From contig CAMJJT010000002.1 of the NCBI GenBank assembly GCA_946406195.1, positions 1 through 64,000 of the forward strand: a DNA stretch of 64,000 nt. Reading direction: 5' to 3'. The stretch comes from an uncultured Bacteroidales bacterium. Lineage in GTDB: Bacteria > Bacteroidota > Bacteroidia > Bacteroidales > Paludibacteraceae. Position numbers and translations under genes: made by a program. The stretch's first letter is position 1. Each line of letters starts with the position of its first letter. Below the pieces are notes generated by a model. That model made no database searches and was not told the origin of the DNA. It saw only the letters and a program-made list of their open reading frames with translations. Of the stretch, positions 35,972-45,222 are shown in pieces.

Positions 35972-36844
35972 TTATTGTGTAAATGGACGAATTCCATAAA
36001 ATGTACTATGAGAAGTAGAGAAGAAACCACAACACTGGGATTTGACTGTGCATGTGTCACAGATTGGGAGATACTTATTTTTCCAATCAGAAATAGATTG
36101 TTTAGCAAATGGATGCAAGTTTTCCGGCAACAAGCAAAGAGGGAGATTGAATAACGAAACATCAAACTCCAGTTGGGAAAGGTATATGACCGCTTGTTGC
36201 AGTTGGGGCATATAGTTAATCGGTTCAACCCAAACAAGATCACGATTCTTGATGGTATAGCCGATGTCTTCCATTGCCATAAATGCAACGCAAGAAACGA
36301 AAGCGAGATTCTTGGAAATGAAACGTGCCATCTGCGGCAAGCGTTGATAGTTTTGCTTTGTCAGGACGACACGCAATTCAATATCCACATCATTGGCTGC
36401 AAGATTATATAAGCCAATGAGCGTCTGATTATAGGCATTTTCTGCTCCTGCTATACGGTCATGGATGATTGGTGAATCGGAATGAAAAGGCACACCAACA
36501 ATGACCATTCCCTCTGCCACTTGTGCCAAGCGTTCTGCGTAGGCTCCATCAGCAAAGCGTCTTCCATTGGATAAAATTTGGATGTGCGTTTTGGGTAAGC
36601 GTTTACGAATATAGGCAATCAAATCAAACAAGCGATCGCCGAGCAAGGTTGGTTCGCCGCCTGTGATGCCGATAGTGGGCAGTTCGATAGGTGCGCTGTC
36701 TATGAGACGGATGTTTTTCTCGTAGAAGAAATCTATATCATCTTTGTTCACCGGCGGTTGGCAGCACATGAGACAATGATTGTTGCATTGTCCGGTGACA
36801 AACAAAGCATTGTCATTTGATTGTATGTCTATTGTATCACGCAT
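35972..36844 (-). CDS. hxsC: His-Xaa-Ser system radical SAM protein HxsC
   Basis: FVTGQCNNHCLMCCQPP, GITGGEPTLLG; adjacent to HxsB/HxsD/HxsA. Confidence 0.8.
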   Translation of the reverse strand: MRDTIDIQSNDNALFVTGQCNNHCLMCCQPPVNKDDIDFFYEKNIRLIDSAPIELPTIGITGGEPTLLGDRLFDLIAYIRKRLPKTHIQILSNGRRFADGAYAERLAQVAEGMVIVGVPFHSDSPIIHDRIAGAENAYNQTLIGLYNLAANDVDIELRVVLTKQNYQRLPQMARFISKNLAFVSCVAFMAMEDIGYTIKNRDLVWVEPINYMPQLQQAVIYLSQLEFDVSLFNLPLCLLPENLHPFAKQSISDWKNKYLPICDTCTVKSQCCGFFSTSHSTFYGIRPFTQ

Positions 36845-38246
36845 TGCGACCTTTTATCCAATTAGTAAAAATAGGCATCACTTCCTCACCTCGGTTTTTG
36901 AGTAGCGAAAGTATATGTTCTACGATGGCTTTGTATTTTTGGCATAAGAGCGAAGTCGGTCGGTGTCCATACATGGAGCCTTGTGTGCTGTAGTTGCGTA
37001 CAGGGTCTGCTCCGCAGTAAGATTGCAAGGGACAATCAGAACACCCTGCTATGGTTTCCGTTGCCCAACAATCGGCAAAGCGTTGTGCTTTTTCTCCATA
37101 AAACAATGATTCATAAGTGTCGGATATACTTCCTAAACGGAAAGTATAATCTCCAGCTTCAGCTAACATGCGCGATTCGTCTGACGCATAGACATAGCCA
37201 TCGTAATTATACACAACTACACTATTTACGATTCCTGCCGGAGATTGCAAATCCACAAAGCCGATAGGGAAAGGCGTGAGTATTTTTTGCAATATAAGGC
37301 GCGTGAACTCTTCCAAAAACAATTCACCTGACTTGTTGATCTCGATGATGTAGTCCAACATTTGTTTGTAGAACTCAATGAAGCACGTTGTGTATGCTTG
37401 CCAATCGTTATTTTCGGTGGCTAATCCATACGGATTAAGCGCACGGATGAATATGGATCGAAAACCATTTTCACGGTATGCATCAACTATCTCCTTTGGA
37501 TAATTCAATGCAGGAACGGACGTTGTCATCAGCGCAGACACTTTGTCTTCACCTAAAGTTTGGCGTGCGCGTGCGATGCCAGCCACCACTTTCTCATAGT
37601 TGTCGATCTTTCCGCGATTTGAATTATGCAAGGCACGTGGTCCATCCAACGAAGTAGATATGAGGATGTTGTACTGCTTGCAAATGGAAAGCACATCATC
37701 CGTGAGGTTGACGCTGTTGGTACATAGTACGTAAGTCAGTGTCTTGTGTGCAGATTGGTTGATTTCTTCGGCTTTCTCAATAGCCGCCCGGATGAGATGA
37801 GGCACAAGGGATGGTTCGCCGCCTTGGAACTCCATTGTAAGATGTTCGGAGGGAGAGCGGAACATCAGTTCAACGGCTTTTAGCAAGTCTGATAATTGCA
37901 TATCTTTACCTTGCGCACATTCCTGTTGGCTCGTGGCTTGGCAATAGACGCAGTTTTGATTGCAACGAAGAGTGAGTACAAAGATATGAAGCGCCGTGAA
38001 CGAGTCAAGAAAGGCTTTCTTTGTACGCAAACGCGCAGCCAAAACATCTATGGTTGATGGAATTGGTGTCGGTGAGATAAAGAAGTTTGCCAACAAATCG
38101 TGATAGAGGTCTTCTTCCTCAGTCAGTTCACGGTTGACGATACGCGATGCCGTTCCTTGTGGACAGAATAGATAATCCCCCACTTCATTGACAAGCAATT
38201 CTTGGTCTTCAAATCGCTCGAATCGGAATGGCAGCAAGTAGTACAT
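36837..38246 (-). CDS. hxsB: His-Xaa-Ser system radical SAM protein HxsB
   Basis: LRCNQNCVYCQ, EFQGGEPSL, C-terminal SPASM-like Cys cluster (CSDCPLQSYCGADP). Confidence 0.8.
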   Translation of the reverse strand: MYYLLPFRFERFEDQELLVNEVGDYLFCPQGTASRIVNRELTEEEDLYHDLLANFFISPTPIPSTIDVLAARLRTKKAFLDSFTALHIFVLTLRCNQNCVYCQATSQQECAQGKDMQLSDLLKAVELMFRSPSEHLTMEFQGGEPSLVPHLIRAAIEKAEEINQSAHKTLTYVLCTNSVNLTDDVLSICKQYNILISTSLDGPRALHNSNRGKIDNYEKVVAGIARARQTLGEDKVSALMTTSVPALNYPKEIVDAYRENGFRSIFIRALNPYGLATENNDWQAYTTCFIEFYKQMLDYIIEINKSGELFLEEFTRLILQKILTPFPIGFVDLQSPAGIVNSVVVYNYDGYVYASDESRMLAEAGDYTFRLGSISDTYESLFYGEKAQRFADCWATETIAGCSDCPLQSYCGADPVRNYSTQGSMYGHRPTSLLCQKYKAIVEHILSLLKNRGEEVMPIFTNWIKGRNA

Positions 38247-38546
38247 CTATTCGGATATTTCTTCAAAATTGTCGTTATTGGCAAATGCCTTAATATAGAG
38301 AATTGTGCGCAGATCTTTGGTTTCATTGTCCACAATCTGCTGCACTTTGAAGTCATTGAGACGAGTTAGGAAACGCTCTTTAAGGGCGCGCTCGTCCTCG
38401 TTGCATTGCGGCTTTGGTTCAAAACAAAGCGTTTCAGCGTTCCCATTCAACTGATGAGTGACGAAATATTGGTTAGTTTCCCAATATACCGCCTTACTGA
38501 TCACTTCATCAGTGAAGATGGTTCTATCAATAGTGAGAGTGAGCAT
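38247..38546 (-). CDS. hxsD: His-Xaa-Ser system protein HxsD
   Basis: Small protein between HxsA and HxsB (MLTLTIDRTIFTDEVISKAVYW...). Confidence 0.75.
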   Translation of the reverse strand: MLTLTIDRTIFTDEVISKAVYWETNQYFVTHQLNGNAETLCFEPKPQCNEDERALKERFLTRLNDFKVQQIVDNETKDLRTILYIKAFANNDNFEEISE

Positions 38547-39263
38547 TTATTTACCGTACTTTCTTAAAGCTGTTACTGTCGTATTGTCAGCAATGCCAGT
38601 AACAGAAAGTTTTGCTTCCTTTTGGAATTTCTTTATGCCGTTTTCAATAGCCTCATCGTAGATTACATAGCCACCTGAATTTGTCTTAATATCGTCAAGA
38701 AAACCATGCTTTTGTAAAAGTGTTGCCAAAACTTTCACATCTGTTCCAATACATCCCAGTTGAAGTGTTCTATCTCCTAATCCAAAGATGTAGTTCCCGT
38801 TATTGATTTTAGGCTTTGTCGGGGTATTAGTCTGAACTTTTTTTACTGTATCGGGTTGCTGTACAGTGTCAGTAACTATTACAGGTTTCTGCTCAACCGG
38901 CTTCGGCGTAGTCGTAGTAGTTGTAGGCATAGTTGTCGTAGTTGTTCTCGTAGCAGATGAAGATGTTGTGCGCGAACTACTGCTGCCACCTCCGTAATAG
39001 CCACCAGAACTGGAACGGTGAGAACTATGCGAACGGTGTGAACTATGACTGCGATGCCCAGCAACCACATACATACCTCCATTACCAAATTTGATAACAT
39101 ATTTTAATAGCTTTTTGGAAGCACTATTTGTTATTCCAGTTAATAATTTGTTTCCGTCTATATTAGTAGGGATAGACGGGAAGTCGGTATTTGCCGCAGA
39201 AGCTATGCTTGCAGTAGAAGCGACCAGCATACCATTCAGTAACTTCTTAAATGAGTTTTTCAT
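38547..39263 (-). CDS. hxsA: His-Xaa-Ser repeat protein HxsA with C-terminal peptidoglycan-binding-like domain
   Basis: Signal peptide; HRSHSSHRSHSSHRS; C-terminal DRTLQLGCIGTDVKVLATLLQKHGFL...IENGIKKFQKEAKLSVTGIAD. Confidence 0.82.
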   Translation of the reverse strand: MKNSFKKLLNGMLVASTASIASAANTDFPSIPTNIDGNKLLTGITNSASKKLLKYVIKFGNGGMYVVAGHRSHSSHRSHSSHRSSSGGYYGGGSSSSRTTSSSATRTTTTTMPTTTTTTPKPVEQKPVIVTDTVQQPDTVKKVQTNTPTKPKINNGNYIFGLGDRTLQLGCIGTDVKVLATLLQKHGFLDDIKTNSGGYVIYDEAIENGIKKFQKEAKLSVTGIADNTTVTALRKYGK

Positions 39264-40054
39264 AGATCCCAATCTTTTAGGTTATATGTCGATTCAATTT
39301 TTTCTTCAATGCTATCCGGAAGAGCAACAAAGAAATCAATATCCGTTATCATTTCTATGTCATCTACAGACATTGCGTACTTGTTTAGTGGTTTGTGCCC
39401 TGCCTGATTAGACATCATAAAGCCGATAGCACTCCATGAATTTTCGTTTTGCCGAAGAATGACTTTATAAAACGCATCAGGAACAGCAATTCTATCTGAG
39501 TAGGAATGTTGACCTATCGTTTTGGGGGTTGCAGAAACAATAGGACCACATGCTACATATACATGGTTAAACTTTGTCGCCATATTACGCACATGCTCCT
39601 CCAAGTCTTTCCAATCTCCTTTATTGAGATTTTTGTTTTGAGGACAAATGTTTGAAGTGTAGAAACTCTCGTCCATTGCCTGTTTACTCCATTTCATATC
39701 TGCTGCCGGAGCCATGTGTCCACGGTCATAGCCAGAGTTTTTATAATCTTCCGTGGAAGGACTTTGCCATATTTGCGGATCAGGGACAAAATTATTCCCT
39801 CTTGGTTCAGTGCCTGCCACTTCTTCTGAAGTTAGCTCATAGGCAACCCAGTTTGGAATTCTCCAATCCGTATTAAAACTTACCGTGTACCCAGTATGTC
39901 TTACAATTTTCTCCGGTTGGCTAGAGAGGATTTTTGGAATTTCATAAGCAGTTTGATCAGCATTCTCCCTAAAACTTGCATAGACAATAAGGGTTAAGAT
40001 AAAGCACACAACCAATGCTGTGTTTACTAATATATTGCGTGTAGTTCCATTCAT
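39260..40054 (-). CDS. DNA/RNA non-specific endonuclease, membrane-anchored
   Basis: N-terminal TM; catalytic YDRGHMAPAADM and SNICPQNKNLNKGDW. Confidence 0.9.
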   Translation of the reverse strand: MNGTTRNILVNTALVVCFILTLIVYASFRENADQTAYEIPKILSSQPEKIVRHTGYTVSFNTDWRIPNWVAYELTSEEVAGTEPRGNNFVPDPQIWQSPSTEDYKNSGYDRGHMAPAADMKWSKQAMDESFYTSNICPQNKNLNKGDWKDLEEHVRNMATKFNHVYVACGPIVSATPKTIGQHSYSDRIAVPDAFYKVILRQNENSWSAIGFMMSNQAGHKPLNKYAMSVDDIEMITDIDFFVALPDSIEEKIESTYNLKDWDL

Positions 40055-40055
40055 A

Positions 40056-42263
40056 TCAATTAATTATTGGTAAGTCCTCTACATTAATTTGCGTTAATTT
40101 CTCCGTAGTAATATCGACATCCTGAGCAAGACGATTAGCTTGTCTCTCAAGTGTTTTTTCAAAAACATTGCGAACCAAACGACCATTTCCGAAATTCGCA
40201 TCTTTGTGAGCCACCTCATTTTCAAAATATTTCTGCAAATGTTCTTTTGCACCCTCTCCGAAGTGGTACTCATATTTTTTCATATTTACCTCAAAAATTT
40301 GCAACAATTCATCTGCTGAATAATCGGGGAACTCAATGTAACGGTTGAAGCGTGATTGCAAGCCGGGGTTGGAGTCTATAAAATCCTTCATATTCTTCGT
40401 ATATCCGGCAAGAATAACAATAAGTCTGTCGCGGTTATCCTCCATCCGTTTCAGCAGTGTAGCAATAGCTTCTTTACCGAAATCATTTTCGCTTCCACTA
40501 ATGAGCGAATATGCCTCATCTATAAAGAGAACTCCATCCAATGCACTGTCTATTATTTTGTTGGTTTTCACTGCCGTTTGCCCTACATACTCTGCTACTA
40601 ACCCTGCACGGTCTGTTTCTACCAAATGCCCTTTACTTACAACGCCAAGATCTTTGTATATCTTTGCCAGAATACGTGCCACTGTTGTTTTTCCCGTTCC
40701 GGGATTTCCTGTAAACACGCAGTGGTAAGAGACAGACGAAGTCTTTAATCCTTTAGCTTCCCGCGCTTGCTGAATCTTAACAAAGTTAGAAAGCGTTTCA
40801 ACTTCTTTCTTGACGGAGCCTAATCCTATTAATTCATCGAGCATTTTTGATGAAGTATTTGTTCTCGGCTTACTACCTTTTGGGGGTGTTGTTGACGCTA
40901 CCCCAATGGGATTTGAATAATCATCGCCTATAATACCCATTAGCAAACGCTCTAATTGCTTTTTGTCTTTTATAAGGACTTCGCGACCGGCTGCACCTCT
41001 GTTCGGTCCAACTATACCAGCAGCCTCTAACTGGTCGGACAATTTCCCCGCACGATTATAACCTATTTCAAACTTACGTTGTAATTGTGAGGTAGAGCCC
41101 TCTTGTTTATCAACAATCCATCTGGCTGCATCTGCAAATAGGGGGTCTAAATCAGGTATATGCGGAGCAGAGATAGGTGTAAATTCCTCTTCCTCTTGCT
41201 CATCCTCTTGCGGAACAAATTCTTGATCGCCGCTTCCCTGCAACTTCATGATATTACCTAACCACTCTGCCTCTTCTTTTGTGACAGTATTGTCTGCTTT
41301 GGCGGTAATAGAAGCAAAACGATAAATGTCAACTAAGAATTTTTGATGTAACATCGTGTCTTTTGTTGACAATAGGCGAGACAGCATAAATGTCTCTGAA
41401 ATAGCCGGAGAAGCATCGATGTATGCCTTTACTCCCTTTATAATAGAAGATGCCTCAGATTGGTATGCTCCTTTTAAAGTTGAGAGATATGTGTAAGGTT
41501 TGTTCTTAGAACATCCTTTTGTAAGAGCAATAAAATATAAGACTCCAAGACCTTCCTTACTATCAAGGTCTATCGGATGTCCCAAGCCAATATAACAACG
41601 AATAATATCTACCAAAAATAGAAGGCGAACTTTTTCTCTGACACTCAATATAGAACTACCATTTATCACGATTTTTACTCCCATAGAATCTACAAGAGTT
41701 TCAAGGCCTTGTATTTTTAACACGTTCTCGTAATCTGCGTATAAATCTTCTGCTGCTTTGATGACTTGGTTGTAATATTTCTCGCTTATGTTATTAGTTG
41801 TATTCTTAGCAGCCTCTATCTCCTCGTGATATATTGCAGATCTCAACGCCTCGCCCACATTACTGCTTGCCTCATTTTTGGCGAATTCTTTTTCTTTTTT
41901 ATTAGCTATTATTGCTGCTATAATATGGGCAACTATAGTGACTCCAAGGAAAGATAACCCTATCCATGTATCTACGGCAAATCCTAATAATATAGCACAT
42001 GCTACAAGTATCCACATACCGAAAGATAACCAAATCAAGCAGCCTTCTTTACACCCTATGTTATCTGCATTTCCTTTGCCACTTCCTATCTTTTGACGAT
42101 TATACAATCCCGTTCCCGGTATGCTTGTGTTAAGATAGGTTCCATTAGGTCCAAATGACAAACTTGCTCCACGTGGTCCGATGGAAGTACTAATTCCCTT
42201 TTTGCCAAAATTAAGTCTAACTCCGGGTATCAAAGTTTTTCTTTTTCTCCAAGTCCAAGCCAT
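40056..42263 (-). CDS. DUF4236 - TM - TerB-like - FtsK-gamma-like - CbxX/CfqX AAA+ protein
   Basis: N-terminal GVRLNFGKKGISTSIGPRGASLSFGPNGTYLNTSIPGTGLY; middle FLVDIYRFASITAKADNTVTKEEAEWLG; ISTSQLQRKFEIGYNRA-like wHTH; Walker A FTGNPGTGKTTVARILAKIY. Confidence 0.8.
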   Translation of the reverse strand: MAWTWRKRKTLIPGVRLNFGKKGISTSIGPRGASLSFGPNGTYLNTSIPGTGLYNRQKIGSGKGNADNIGCKEGCLIWLSFGMWILVACAILLGFAVDTWIGLSFLGVTIVAHIIAAIIANKKEKEFAKNEASSNVGEALRSAIYHEEIEAAKNTTNNISEKYYNQVIKAAEDLYADYENVLKIQGLETLVDSMGVKIVINGSSILSVREKVRLLFLVDIIRCYIGLGHPIDLDSKEGLGVLYFIALTKGCSKNKPYTYLSTLKGAYQSEASSIIKGVKAYIDASPAISETFMLSRLLSTKDTMLHQKFLVDIYRFASITAKADNTVTKEEAEWLGNIMKLQGSGDQEFVPQEDEQEEEEFTPISAPHIPDLDPLFADAARWIVDKQEGSTSQLQRKFEIGYNRAGKLSDQLEAAGIVGPNRGAAGREVLIKDKKQLERLLMGIIGDDYSNPIGVASTTPPKGSKPRTNTSSKMLDELIGLGSVKKEVETLSNFVKIQQAREAKGLKTSSVSYHCVFTGNPGTGKTTVARILAKIYKDLGVVSKGHLVETDRAGLVAEYVGQTAVKTNKIIDSALDGVLFIDEAYSLISGSENDFGKEAIATLLKRMEDNRDRLIVILAGYTKNMKDFIDSNPGLQSRFNRYIEFPDYSADELLQIFEVNMKKYEYHFGEGAKEHLQKYFENEVAHKDANFGNGRLVRNVFEKTLERQANRLAQDVDITTEKLTQINVEDLPIIN

Positions 42264-42997
42264 TATTTTTCTGCTTCTTTTTCTTTTTTAGCCTCTCGCA
42301 ATTCTTCCAGATAACTTGCTGTAATTACACCCGAAGGCAAAGCGATTACGGCAACTCCAAGAATAGCAGAAAGCATACTAATTATTCTGCCCATATCAGT
42401 TGCTGGGTATATATCTCCGTATCCAACTGTGGTCAGCGTCGTTGTAGCCCAATAGAGTGCGTCGAAGAAATCATCAAACATCGCAGATTCTTCAACGTTA
42501 AACATAATCAATGCAGTAATAACAATGTAGAATAGCGCAATCCAAAATACGGTAAATAGGATATGACGCTCTTTGCGAAGTACTTTGAACAAGATTTGTA
42601 CGTTCTTTGAGTAACGGACGAACTTAAACACACGCAATATCTTGAAAAGACGCGTAATACGGAATAGTTTTAGTGCTTTGTTTACAACGATGAGTGAAGG
42701 TAATATTGATAGCAAATCGATAATTGCAAAGGCTGTAAATGGGTACGTTAGAAAGGCCACCCATTTTGGGCGATCATTAAGGCGCAAGTCAGCTGTTAGC
42801 CAACGTAACAAATAATCGATAATAAAAACAATTACAGATACTTTGTCGAACCATTCAAGCCACACATTCTGTTCGCGAAACGCAAGCGGAATAATACTGA
42901 TGAGGATGAAAAACAACATCGCCCAATCATAAAATCTGCTAATGACTGAGTTGCGTCCTGTTTCTATCGTTTCGTATATTTCATTTCTCCAATTCAT
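42263..42997 (-). CDS. Voltage-gated K+ channel (Kv-like)
   Basis: S4-like RITRLFKILRVFKFVRYSK and selectivity filter TTVGYGD; ATG at 42997. Confidence 0.9.
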   Translation of the reverse strand: MNWRNEIYETIETGRNSVISRFYDWAMLFFILISIIPLAFREQNVWLEWFDKVSVIVFIIDYLLRWLTADLRLNDRPKWVAFLTYPFTAFAIIDLLSILPSLIVVNKALKLFRITRLFKILRVFKFVRYSKNVQILFKVLRKERHILFTVFWIALFYIVITALIMFNVEESAMFDDFFDALYWATTTLTTVGYGDIYPATDMGRIISMLSAILGVAVIALPSGVITASYLEELREAKKEKEAEK

Positions 42998-43018
42998 GTC
43001 GGGTATGAATTTTGTCTG

Positions 43019-43050
43019 CAAAGGTACAACATTTTTTTGATATATGCAAA
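43019..43050 (-). promoter_or_regulatory. Sigma-ABfr promoter driving the channel/AAA/nuclease/Hxs cluster
   Basis: Minus strand TTTGCATATATCAAAAAAATGTTGTACCTTTG. Confidence 0.8.
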
Positions 43051-43110
43051 TAAAACTCTCTTTTTTTGAACAGACAAAAAAAAATCTGCACTTGGGATGC
43101 AGATTTATTG
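43019..43110 (-). repeat. Terminator-promoter intergenic module, copy A
   Basis: Promoter + CTCTCTTTTTTTGAACAGACA + AAATCTGCA-N7-TGCAGATTT hairpin. Confidence 0.8.
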
Positions 43111-43233
43111 TTTTTGTGAAGCCTGGGAGACTCTAAAGGAATGAGATTTCGAAGCGGCTAATTTCAAAGCGTGACAATTTGTCACTGTTTCATTCCCATC
43201 ATCTTTCAAGCGCTTTTTTGTAACTCTCCTATA
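43105..43233 (-). pseudogene. Relic fragment of a BRO-N/antirepressor-like gene
   Basis: Minus translation YRRVTKKRLKDDGNETVTNCHALKLAASKSHSFRVSQASQKQ* vs WNKLKQRLAEEGNETVTNCHQLKLTAADGK at 9142-9516. Confidence 0.65.
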
Positions 43234-43236
43234 TGT

Positions 43237-43635
43237 TTATACCTTTAACAACTCTTCTATTTTTTGTAAAAGTTCGTAAGCTAACGGTTTTAAAGCCTCC
43301 AAATCTTCACGCGAGACATCATAGATAACATCGTAATCCGCCTTCTCTCGCATATTCTCCATGACGGCAATAAAATGACCAAACTTCGGATCAATAATGC
43401 CTGTTTTGATGAAATGCTGATGAAACTGCGCATTTGTGCCATGATGCGATCTTGATTGTATCCCATTCGCCACAAAAATCGCATGGATAGCATGAAAGAC
43501 CGCGTAATAGAAACGATTGGCAGCAGCCGAAATGGATTCAATCTGCATCAATTGTTCTCCATCAGCAAGACATGCACGGCATTTATCTAAATGTAGCTGC
43601 GTCAAAACTTGTTTATCTTCGTTTGTCAGGCTCAT
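43237..43635 (-). CDS. HEPN domain protein
   Basis: 'ANRFYYAVFHAIHAIF' HEPN-type helix; overlaps NTase gene. Confidence 0.8.
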   Translation of the reverse strand: MSLTNEDKQVLTQLHLDKCRACLADGEQLMQIESISAAANRFYYAVFHAIHAIFVANGIQSRSHHGTNAQFHQHFIKTGIIDPKFGHFIAVMENMREKADYDVIYDVSREDLEALKPLAYELLQKIEELLKV

Positions 43636-43949
43636 ACTAATACGATTTTTTCGTCCTCAACATTACAATAGAATGGAGTGAAATGGCGTTGCTCCCATTC
43701 TCGACGGGTATAAAGCATCGGATTTATCTCTTGACCTATCTGCCATCCCAGTTCTACAAACGGGTATGCATACATGTCGTAATCCTGTAGTTGCTGTTTT
43801 TCTTTGTCCACCAATACCAGCAAATCCCAGTCGGAGTCGGAGCGATTATCACCACGAGCCCGAGAACCATATAGCCATAGATTACTTCCTTCGGGAAGAA
43901 TCTGCTTACCCATCATACTGATGCGTTGTATGGTTGCTGTTTTTGTCAT
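43632..43949 (-). CDS. Minimal nucleotidyltransferase (MNT)
   Basis: LYGSRARGDNRSDSDWDLLVLV. Confidence 0.88.
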   Translation of the reverse strand: MTKTATIQRISMMGKQILPEGSNLWLYGSRARGDNRSDSDWDLLVLVDKEKQQLQDYDMYAYPFVELGWQIGQEINPMLYTRREWEQRHFTPFYCNVEDEKIVLV

Positions 43950-43989
43950 AAAGGTTGTGATTTTGTACGTTCTTTGCAACTTACGGCTG

Positions 43990-44021
43990 CAAAGGTACTA
44001 CATTTTTTTGATATATGCAAA
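43990..44021 (-). promoter_or_regulatory. Sigma-ABfr promoter for MNT-HEPN pair
   Basis: Minus strand TTTGCATATATCAAAAAAATGTAGTACCTTTG. Confidence 0.8.
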
Positions 44022-44082
44022 TAAAACTCTCTTTTTTTGAACAGACACAAAAAAAATCTGCACTTTTGATGCAGATTTATTG
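43990..44082 (-). repeat. Terminator-promoter intergenic module, copy B
   Basis: Near-identical to copy A. Confidence 0.8.
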
Positions 44083-44136
44083 TATTCCAGTGTTGTGGAG
44101 AGTGTTCATCCTCGCTATTCATTATACCGGTTTCAT

Positions 44137-44412
44137 TTACGACAATAGTTCCAAAATCCGTTTGGCATCGGAGCGTGTGAAGCCTTCTGCATGAATAGTC
44201 TGGCTACCTTTGCTTTCAATGACGATGTCGCCAAATAGCAAGTGCATCGAGATATTGACAGAACCGATGCGTTCACGCATGATAACCGATTGATCATAGC
44301 CGATGATTTTGCCTTTGTAATAGGTCACTTTGTCATCATCGATGATCAGTTTGTCCGGGAAAATGGCATTCCCATTGCCGGAAATCCGGCTTGCTACAAA
44401 TGTATGAGTCAT
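44137..44412 (-). CDS. Small PH-like domain protein
   Basis: 91 aa, 'KLIIDDDKVTYYKGKIIGYDQSVIMRERIGSVNISMHLLFGDIVIESKG' resembles bacterial PH domains. Confidence 0.6.
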   Translation of the reverse strand: MTHTFVASRISGNGNAIFPDKLIIDDDKVTYYKGKIIGYDQSVIMRERIGSVNISMHLLFGDIVIESKGSQTIHAEGFTRSDAKRILELLS

Positions 44413-44434
44413 AGTGGTATTTGTATTTTTCGTG

Positions 44435-44522
44435 CAAAATTACAACTTTTTTCTGAATTACGCAAATAAACTCTCTTTTTTTCTACATTCACAAAAAAAA
44501 TCTGCACTTTTGATGCAGATTA
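44435..44522 (-). repeat. Terminator-promoter intergenic module, copy C
   Basis: Diverged promoter half, near-identical terminator half AAAAAAAATCTGCACTTTTGATGCAGATT. Confidence 0.75.
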
Positions 44523-45134
44523 GTCCACATAAGTTACGTACGAACCGCGGACACATTTCCAACGTCCATTAGTGAGAAGCTGGACATCATCGCCATAGAC
44601 ACCATCTATCTTATCGCCGTCATCGTTCACGGCATACCAATAACGGCCATGTTTGATGAGGAAACAGCCGTTCCAAAACATAAGCGGCGATTCATCTGAA
44701 TAACACCCCACCTTACGACCGGAACAATGATAGATGTCCCAATAACCGGAACTACGTTGTAACGTCACATAGCCAAAGGGGAAATAATAGATCGTTTTGC
44801 CATAGATGCCGTCCACGAGATCTCCGTTTTCATCAGCAAGATACCATGTGTTGCCTCGTCTGACACGATAATAGCCGTTATAAAGCAGGTTTATTTCATT
44901 GCCGTACAAAATAGACCATGAATCGCGGTATATATAGATGGTCCGACCGGAAGTCTTCACATAACATCCGTTCCAAAGGTCCTGAAAATGGTCCGTACAG
45001 GAAACGGATTTGCGAGTGGTTACTTCGTGTCCGGAATCTTCGAACCAAAGATCGTACTTGTCGGAAACCACATACTGTGCCTGTATGGTCATGCAAGCCA
45101 TCAGCGCGAGGAAGAAGGAATAAAGACGTTTCAT
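44520..45134 (-). CDS. Secreted WG-repeat-like protein
   Basis: Signal peptide then repeated 'YYRVRRGNTWYLADENGDLVDGIYG' / 'CFLIKHGRYWYAVNDDGDKIDGVYG'. Confidence 0.6.
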   Translation of the reverse strand: MKRLYSFFLALMACMTIQAQYVVSDKYDLWFEDSGHEVTTRKSVSCTDHFQDLWNGCYVKTSGRTIYIYRDSWSILYGNEINLLYNGYYRVRRGNTWYLADENGDLVDGIYGKTIYYFPFGYVTLQRSSGYWDIYHCSGRKVGCYSDESPLMFWNGCFLIKHGRYWYAVNDDGDKIDGVYGDDVQLLTNGRWKCVRGSYVTYVD

Positions 45135-45222
45135 AAGTCCGCACATTTAATGGGTTACAAAATCTTTTTTCTCCCCATGTGCAAATACTATGCCAAAAGC
45201 AGGCGAGGAGAGCTTGCCTGAC

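Follow-up and report, generated by a model that had tools for sequence, protein, structure and literature searches.

Three short intergenic sequences of similar build stand on the minus strand of a Bacteroidales genome, between genes that are unrelated to one another, and the question raised by this locus is why one sequence should recur at successive gene boundaries. The window, meaning the whole stretch of 64,000 nucleotides that was analysed, is part of contig C2 of a draft genome of 2.31 Mb. A preliminary description had reported three terminator-promoter modules on its minus strand, and all three were located; they are referred to here as units M1, M2 and M3. The minus-strand order at the locus is WG-like gene, M3, bPH gene, M2, MNT, HEPN, M1, ion channel, AAA ATPase and nuclease, and the features concerned are the following.

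44520 to 45146, minus strand: gene for a WG-repeat-like secreted protein, its stop codon abutting M3.
44433 to 44523, minus strand: unit M3, with hairpin at 44494-44523, linker, -33 box at 44463-44466 and -7 box at 44435-44442; predicted to read into the bPH gene.
44137 to 44412, minus strand: bacterial PH-like (bPH) gene of 91 aa (Pfam bPH_2), a single-gene cassette between M3 and M2.
43988 to 44079, minus strand: unit M2, with hairpin at 44050-44079, linker, -33 box at 44018-44021 and -7 box at 43990-43997; predicted to stop the bPH gene and read into MNT-HEPN.
43632 to 43979, minus strand: MNT nucleotidyltransferase (Pfam NTP_transf_2/Polbeta, above cut-off), first gene of the MNT-HEPN cassette.
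43237 to 43635, minus strand: HEPN protein (Pfam HEPN, above cut-off, E = 2.4e-14), second gene of the MNT-HEPN cassette.
43017 to 43107, minus strand: unit M1, with hairpin at 43078-43107, A-rich linker, -33 TTTG at 43047-43050 and -7 TAnnTTTG at 43019-43026; predicted to stop MNT-HEPN and read into the K+ channel gene.
42263 to 43021, minus strand: voltage-gated ion channel (Pfam Ion_trans, E = 1.6e-32), first gene after M1, in the K+ channel operon.
43010 to 44139, minus strand: block comprising the bPH 3' UTR, M2, MNT-HEPN and M1, present at 97.4% identity in genome G323 with other neighbours on both sides.

Read 5' to 3' on the minus strand, each unit consists of a hairpin, a T-tract, an A-rich linker ending in AAAAAAAGAGAG, and then TTTG-N20-TAnnTTTG. 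The hairpin pairs AAATCTGCA with TGCAGATTT around a loop of TCAAAAG or TCCCAAG; its stem measures 9 bp, and the three copies fold as RNA at -10 to -10.9 kcal/mol (z -3.3 to -4.7). A hairpin and T-tract placed in this way after a gene have the form of an intrinsic (Rho-independent) terminator, and in M3 the hairpin overlaps the stop codon of the WG-like gene. The remainder of all three units has the form of a sigma-ABfr promoter, with TTTG at about -33, TAnnTTTG at -7 and a spacing of 20 nt, in accordance with the published -33/-7 consensus for Bacteroides (PMC7366714). A dual role as terminator of one gene and promoter of the next, as the preliminary description had proposed, would agree, for all units in the window, with their build and with the strand on which they lie.

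When M2 was searched by BLAST against its own genome, M1 was recovered at 96% identity (E = 1.2e-36) and M3 at 85% (E = 7.8e-22), and with such E values the likeness of the three is far beyond chance. The term near-identical, first used for all of them, thus suits M1 and M2 only. M3 keeps the hairpin and linker core, and departs from the other two in one part of the linker (CTACATTCA on the plus strand, where M1 and M2 have GAACAGACA) and in the promoter spacer and -7 box (GCGTAATTCAG...TAATTTTG). An alignment of ten units from six genomes gave a mean column identity of 89%, the linker core included.

The genes at the locus are of several kinds. The WG-repeat-like protein had no match in Pfam, and its gene has a varying downstream neighbour across most of the genomes in which it occurs. 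The bPH_2 score of the 91-aa protein lies slightly below the Pfam cut-off. The MNT reading frame begins at an upstream TTG, and the form starting at ATG has 105 aa. As in Type VII MntA-HepT toxin-antitoxin systems, the MNT gene directly precedes and overlaps the HEPN gene; in contrast to those systems, the MNT protein reaches 33.7 of the 60 bits of the curated cut-off for NCBIfam MntA_antitoxin, and the HEPN protein had no match in NCBIfam; the pair is a candidate member of this type. Between the HEPN stop codon and M1 (43141-43205) lies an imperfect inverted repeat, GGAATGA...TCATTCC with inner GTGACAATTTGTCAC, and G323 has the same. In relatives, which are chiefly Bacteroidales and Paludibacteraceae assemblies from rumen or gut among those named, the ion channel gene has other genes upstream and the module is absent there. 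Beyond the channel, positions 40056-42263 encode a 735-aa protein that combines DUF4236, an FtsK-gamma domain and a CbbX/SpoVK-type AAA ATPase with lid. A His-Xaa-Ser system adjoins the channel operon at 36837-39272, comprising an HxsB radical SAM maturase (561 bits against a cut-off of 370), HxsD and an HxsA-like His-Xaa-Ser protein.

The predicted transcriptional role was examined over about 0.6 Mb of the source genome and over 60 copies of the hairpin. The sampled 609 kb contained 34 terminator-like hairpins, among which the unit hairpin was the only family with several unrelated copies. The other 29 were nearly all different, and the idea that the unit hairpin is simply the usual terminator of this genome was rejected. 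In most of the 60 copies the preceding gene is on the same strand and its stop codon lies shortly upstream. A promoter follows within 110 nt in 41 of these copies, which are not all independent of one another, as against 3 of the 29 other terminator-like hairpins of the genome sample and an expectation of 0.02. Three layouts of hairpin and promoter were seen: the unit with linker, as in the window; a form, represented by many copies, in which the T-tract doubles as the -33 box; and, with other hairpins, a form in which the -33 box lies within the hairpin loop, as between WG and bPH in G003 and between ClpB and RhuM in G015. At these last two junctions (L218 and L060, respectively) a putative terminator is nested in a promoter, the loop supplying the -33 TTTG and the 3' arm plus T-tract serving as spacer. 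No known RNA family accounts for the hairpin, Rfam having returned sub-threshold chance matches only; a genome-wide repeat of the DNA-uptake type was likewise rejected on the grounds of a mere handful of copies and no k-mer enrichment.

The genes behind units include RhuM, Fic, ORF6N, KilA-N, Bro-N, YhcG, zeta toxin, PIN and MNT, as well as DUF3791-DUF3990 and ATPase_2-like proteins. Twenty genes behind random promoters served as a control (ten scanned) and were mostly housekeeping or structural. The enrichment of accessory genes behind units is qualitative only, because the controls also include one ATPase_2-type gene and one DUF4160 gene.

The units form a family of dispersed repeats in a single genus of rumen Bacteroidales. 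A 22-nt hairpin pattern, with at most one mismatch, was found in 27 of 101 genomes of the genus and its reversed control in none; a covariance model of the hairpin found it in 30 of the 101. Across 198 genomes of the order, the source included, the same model detected the hairpin in the source genome and in none of the 197 others. Sought beyond the locus with a 91-nt covariance model spanning the complete unit, the module turned up in 54 of 178 genus genomes, in up to 12 copies per genome (G368) and with six in the source genome. Tandem groups of units occur in G368, G372, G309, G338, G312, G322 and G051, and contig 4 of G372 carries four units in 3.5 kb. In G095 (contig 1, L108, 7367-9690), three tandem hairpin-promoters separate an ATPase gene and a Bro-N gene, and a sequence like the 3' end of tRNA-Ala precedes the last of them, as at the tRNA-Ala locus of G015. 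All the genomes compared are drafts, mostly metagenome assemblies; that independent assemblies, those of the source genome and G323, carry the same arrangement argues against assembly error.

The genes between units vary among genomes, with breaks in or at the units, and cassettes recur in genomes where their neighbours are different. Through umuD, umuC and DUF456, G323 and the window are collinear at 95% identity as far as 46670, the DUF456 stop codon; G323 then resumes directly at 44139, the bPH stop codon, and continues at 97.4% through M2, MNT-HEPN and M1. Its promoter becomes another type immediately beyond the M1 -33 box, and an exonuclease gene takes the place of the channel. The RhuM cassette at the FtsK locus of G368 is 92% identical to that at the ClpB locus of G015. 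The shared stretch stops at the promoters on both sides: one limit is 1 nt away from a unit's end, and the other falls 11 nt within a unit; at the FtsK locus of G021 there is a RhuM fragment and then a unit. A PIN toxin pair, 97.2% identical over 813 nt, lies at different loci in G021 and G338, and in both the homology runs exactly to the end of the downstream unit. The G021 locus that holds this pair has another gene pair in G368, with a flank 95.8% identical.

At the FMN-reductase locus, the hairpin is common to 11 genomes and is followed by different genes, among them YhcG, KilA-N and a zeta pair; most other genomes have a lipoprotein gene overlapping the reductase stop codon. G068 and G074 share a conserved left gene and a right flank of 97% identity, with KilA-N in the one and zeta in the other. 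In G324 (contig 25, L271), the reductase gene end and hairpin are repeated about 2.6 kb downstream of the full gene, a pattern that resembles the two ends of an insertion that brought a replacement gene end. Some breaks lie outside units: in G323 two coincide with stop codons, those of DUF456 and bPH. The bPH gene is common to G338 (92.6%) and G004 (83%) from about its promoter to its stop codon and no further; the homologous block ends near 44469 and 44135 of the window, the break lying near the transcription start and not in the hairpin. Crossover points are not resolvable below the unit, because units are alike and shared-cassette alignments always run to the unit end.

These observations lead us to think it probable that dispersed terminator-promoter units border interchangeable, self-insulating cassettes, exchanged by crossovers in or at the units and most likely by homologous recombination. 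Each unit would act as an intergenic boundary that halts transcription of the gene before it and starts that of the gene after it. A cassette would then be a gene or gene pair with its own terminator and an outgoing promoter for the next gene, and accessory genes in this form (MNT-HEPN, PIN pairs, RhuM, ATPases, bPH and others) could be gained, lost or replaced. Incoming DNA might recombine with a resident unit, or two resident units with each other; either event would add, exchange or remove the intervening cassette, and both neighbours would afterwards still have a terminator and a promoter. A cassette entering by way of units would thus be insulated from its neighbour and expressed at once. 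Ordinary homologous recombination is the likeliest mechanism because each copy offers about 60 to 90 nt of near-identity, at several sites and in many strains. The case for it also draws on the lack of any IntI above cut-off in 101 genomes, the lack of a fixed break base, and the Pfam scan of the window cassettes, in which no mobility gene was seen. The preliminary suggestion of modular gene acquisition through homologous intergenic units is borne out to the extent that cassettes are common to different genomes and break in or at units; its other suggestion, cassette duplication, is not supported.

A less likely account, though one to be taken seriously, is that the units are ordinary regulatory parts: a favoured terminator and strong, similar promoters in compact intergenic regions, alike through selection, with exchange taking place without their involvement. 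It would accommodate the finding that most of the 44 matches to M2 in its own genome are promoter-like, covering the first ~35 nt, and that many copies of the hairpin end conserved host genes such as LepA and CoaE with no cassette. It would also fit the ClpB locus, where linker and promoter are the same and the terminators in front of them differ; the hairpin is separable from linker and promoter, which in G368 follow a different terminator. Against such an account, the hairpin is rare in the source genome (7 strong copies in 2.3 Mb), the other terminators of the sample are nearly all different, the linker is conserved too, and shared cassettes break at units in independent cases.

A second dispersed repeat bears on the next alternative. 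This repeat, CGTCCCTCTCCGAGACG...GGAGAAAGACAAGCGCAAAGCG with a variable middle, immediately follows the stop codon in zeta, KilA-N, YhcG and STAS-like cassettes (L067, 1530 and 2401; L062, 17147 and 17719; L136, 7787; L132, 4932). It behaves like a cassette 3' end: a zeta cassette 97.5% identical at two loci ends within it. The hairpin-promoter or this second repeat might be the recombination site of a dedicated enzyme, as in integrons, and in keeping with this the second repeat folds as an imperfect inverted repeat (z -2.7 and -4.3, the third copy 0.1). We nevertheless judge such a site-specific system improbable, as the breaks do not fall at a constant base, the window lacks the second repeat, and the core of that repeat occurs in only 14 of 101 genomes. 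Integron cassettes also form tandem arrays of small accessory genes, including toxin-antitoxin genes, with a repeated border; here, in contrast, each cassette has its own predicted terminator, followed by a promoter serving the next cassette, whereas promoters are usually missing from integron cassettes. An integron proper was rejected, since none of 101 genomes carries an IntI integrase above the TIGR02249 cut-off; by eye, attC-type ends (RYYYAAC/GTTRRRY) were seen neither in the unit nor in the second repeat.

The frequent position of the hairpin directly upstream of the -33 box might suggest an operator, in which a dimer would bind the palindrome, but the distance to the promoter varies from 1 to about 70 nt, most copies come after the stop codon of a gene on the same strand and continue into a T-tract, and several copies have no promoter, so that this reading was rejected as highly improbable. 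Local tandem duplication, in which one unit was copied twice at the locus and the genes diverged afterwards, could draw on the 96% identity of M1 and M2, 971 nt apart, but it is scarcely credible and was rejected, as no duplicated coding sequence was found flanking M1 to M3, the genes between them are unrelated, the M2-MNT-HEPN-M1 block has other neighbours in G323, and units abound elsewhere in the genus.

Among known systems, the reading of units as borders of exchangeable cassettes comes closest to the minimal mobile elements of Neisseria, as these are defined in PMC3082526, which cites Snyder et al. 2007; the name is due to Saunders and Snyder 2002. There too, different whole-gene cassettes occupy one place between conserved genes in different strains, and homologous recombination is held responsible, as we infer for the units. 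The FMN-reductase locus, with different cassettes between conserved genes in G068 and G074, is a minimal mobile element in this sense; the window locus is one in part, its left and right neighbours both varying. Conserved flanking genes define the Neisseria elements, whereas the border here is a small dispersed terminator-promoter repeat, and therefore one cassette may be found at several loci, and cassettes may follow one another in tandem. As a variant of these elements, the present system would add the border repeat, its putative terminator-promoter nature and the tandem arrays. REP/BIME-type repeats are likewise short, intergenic, hairpin-forming, dispersed and confined to related genomes; the units differ from them in low copy number (1-12), orientation with transcription, a joined promoter and a T-tract on one side.

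A bolder proposal, which we put forward tentatively and regard as not quite an even call, is that of a genus-wide, integrase-free cassette system. The terminator-promoter repeat would be its exchange border, and toxin-antitoxin, RhuM/Fic/KilA-N and similar solo genes would travel among many chromosomal sites as insulated units ready for expression, and would accumulate in tandem arrays. RhuM, ORF6N, Fic, YhcG, MNT-HEPN and like small accessory genes are common in Bacteroidales; the literature searched gave no account of how they move without a mobility gene, and no description of the unit reported here. The 91-nt model offers a sequence tag by which such arrays may be found. A common terminator-promoter border would be a concrete and testable route for the movement of accessory genes, and would explain how newcomers could be expressed while their neighbours are left undisturbed.
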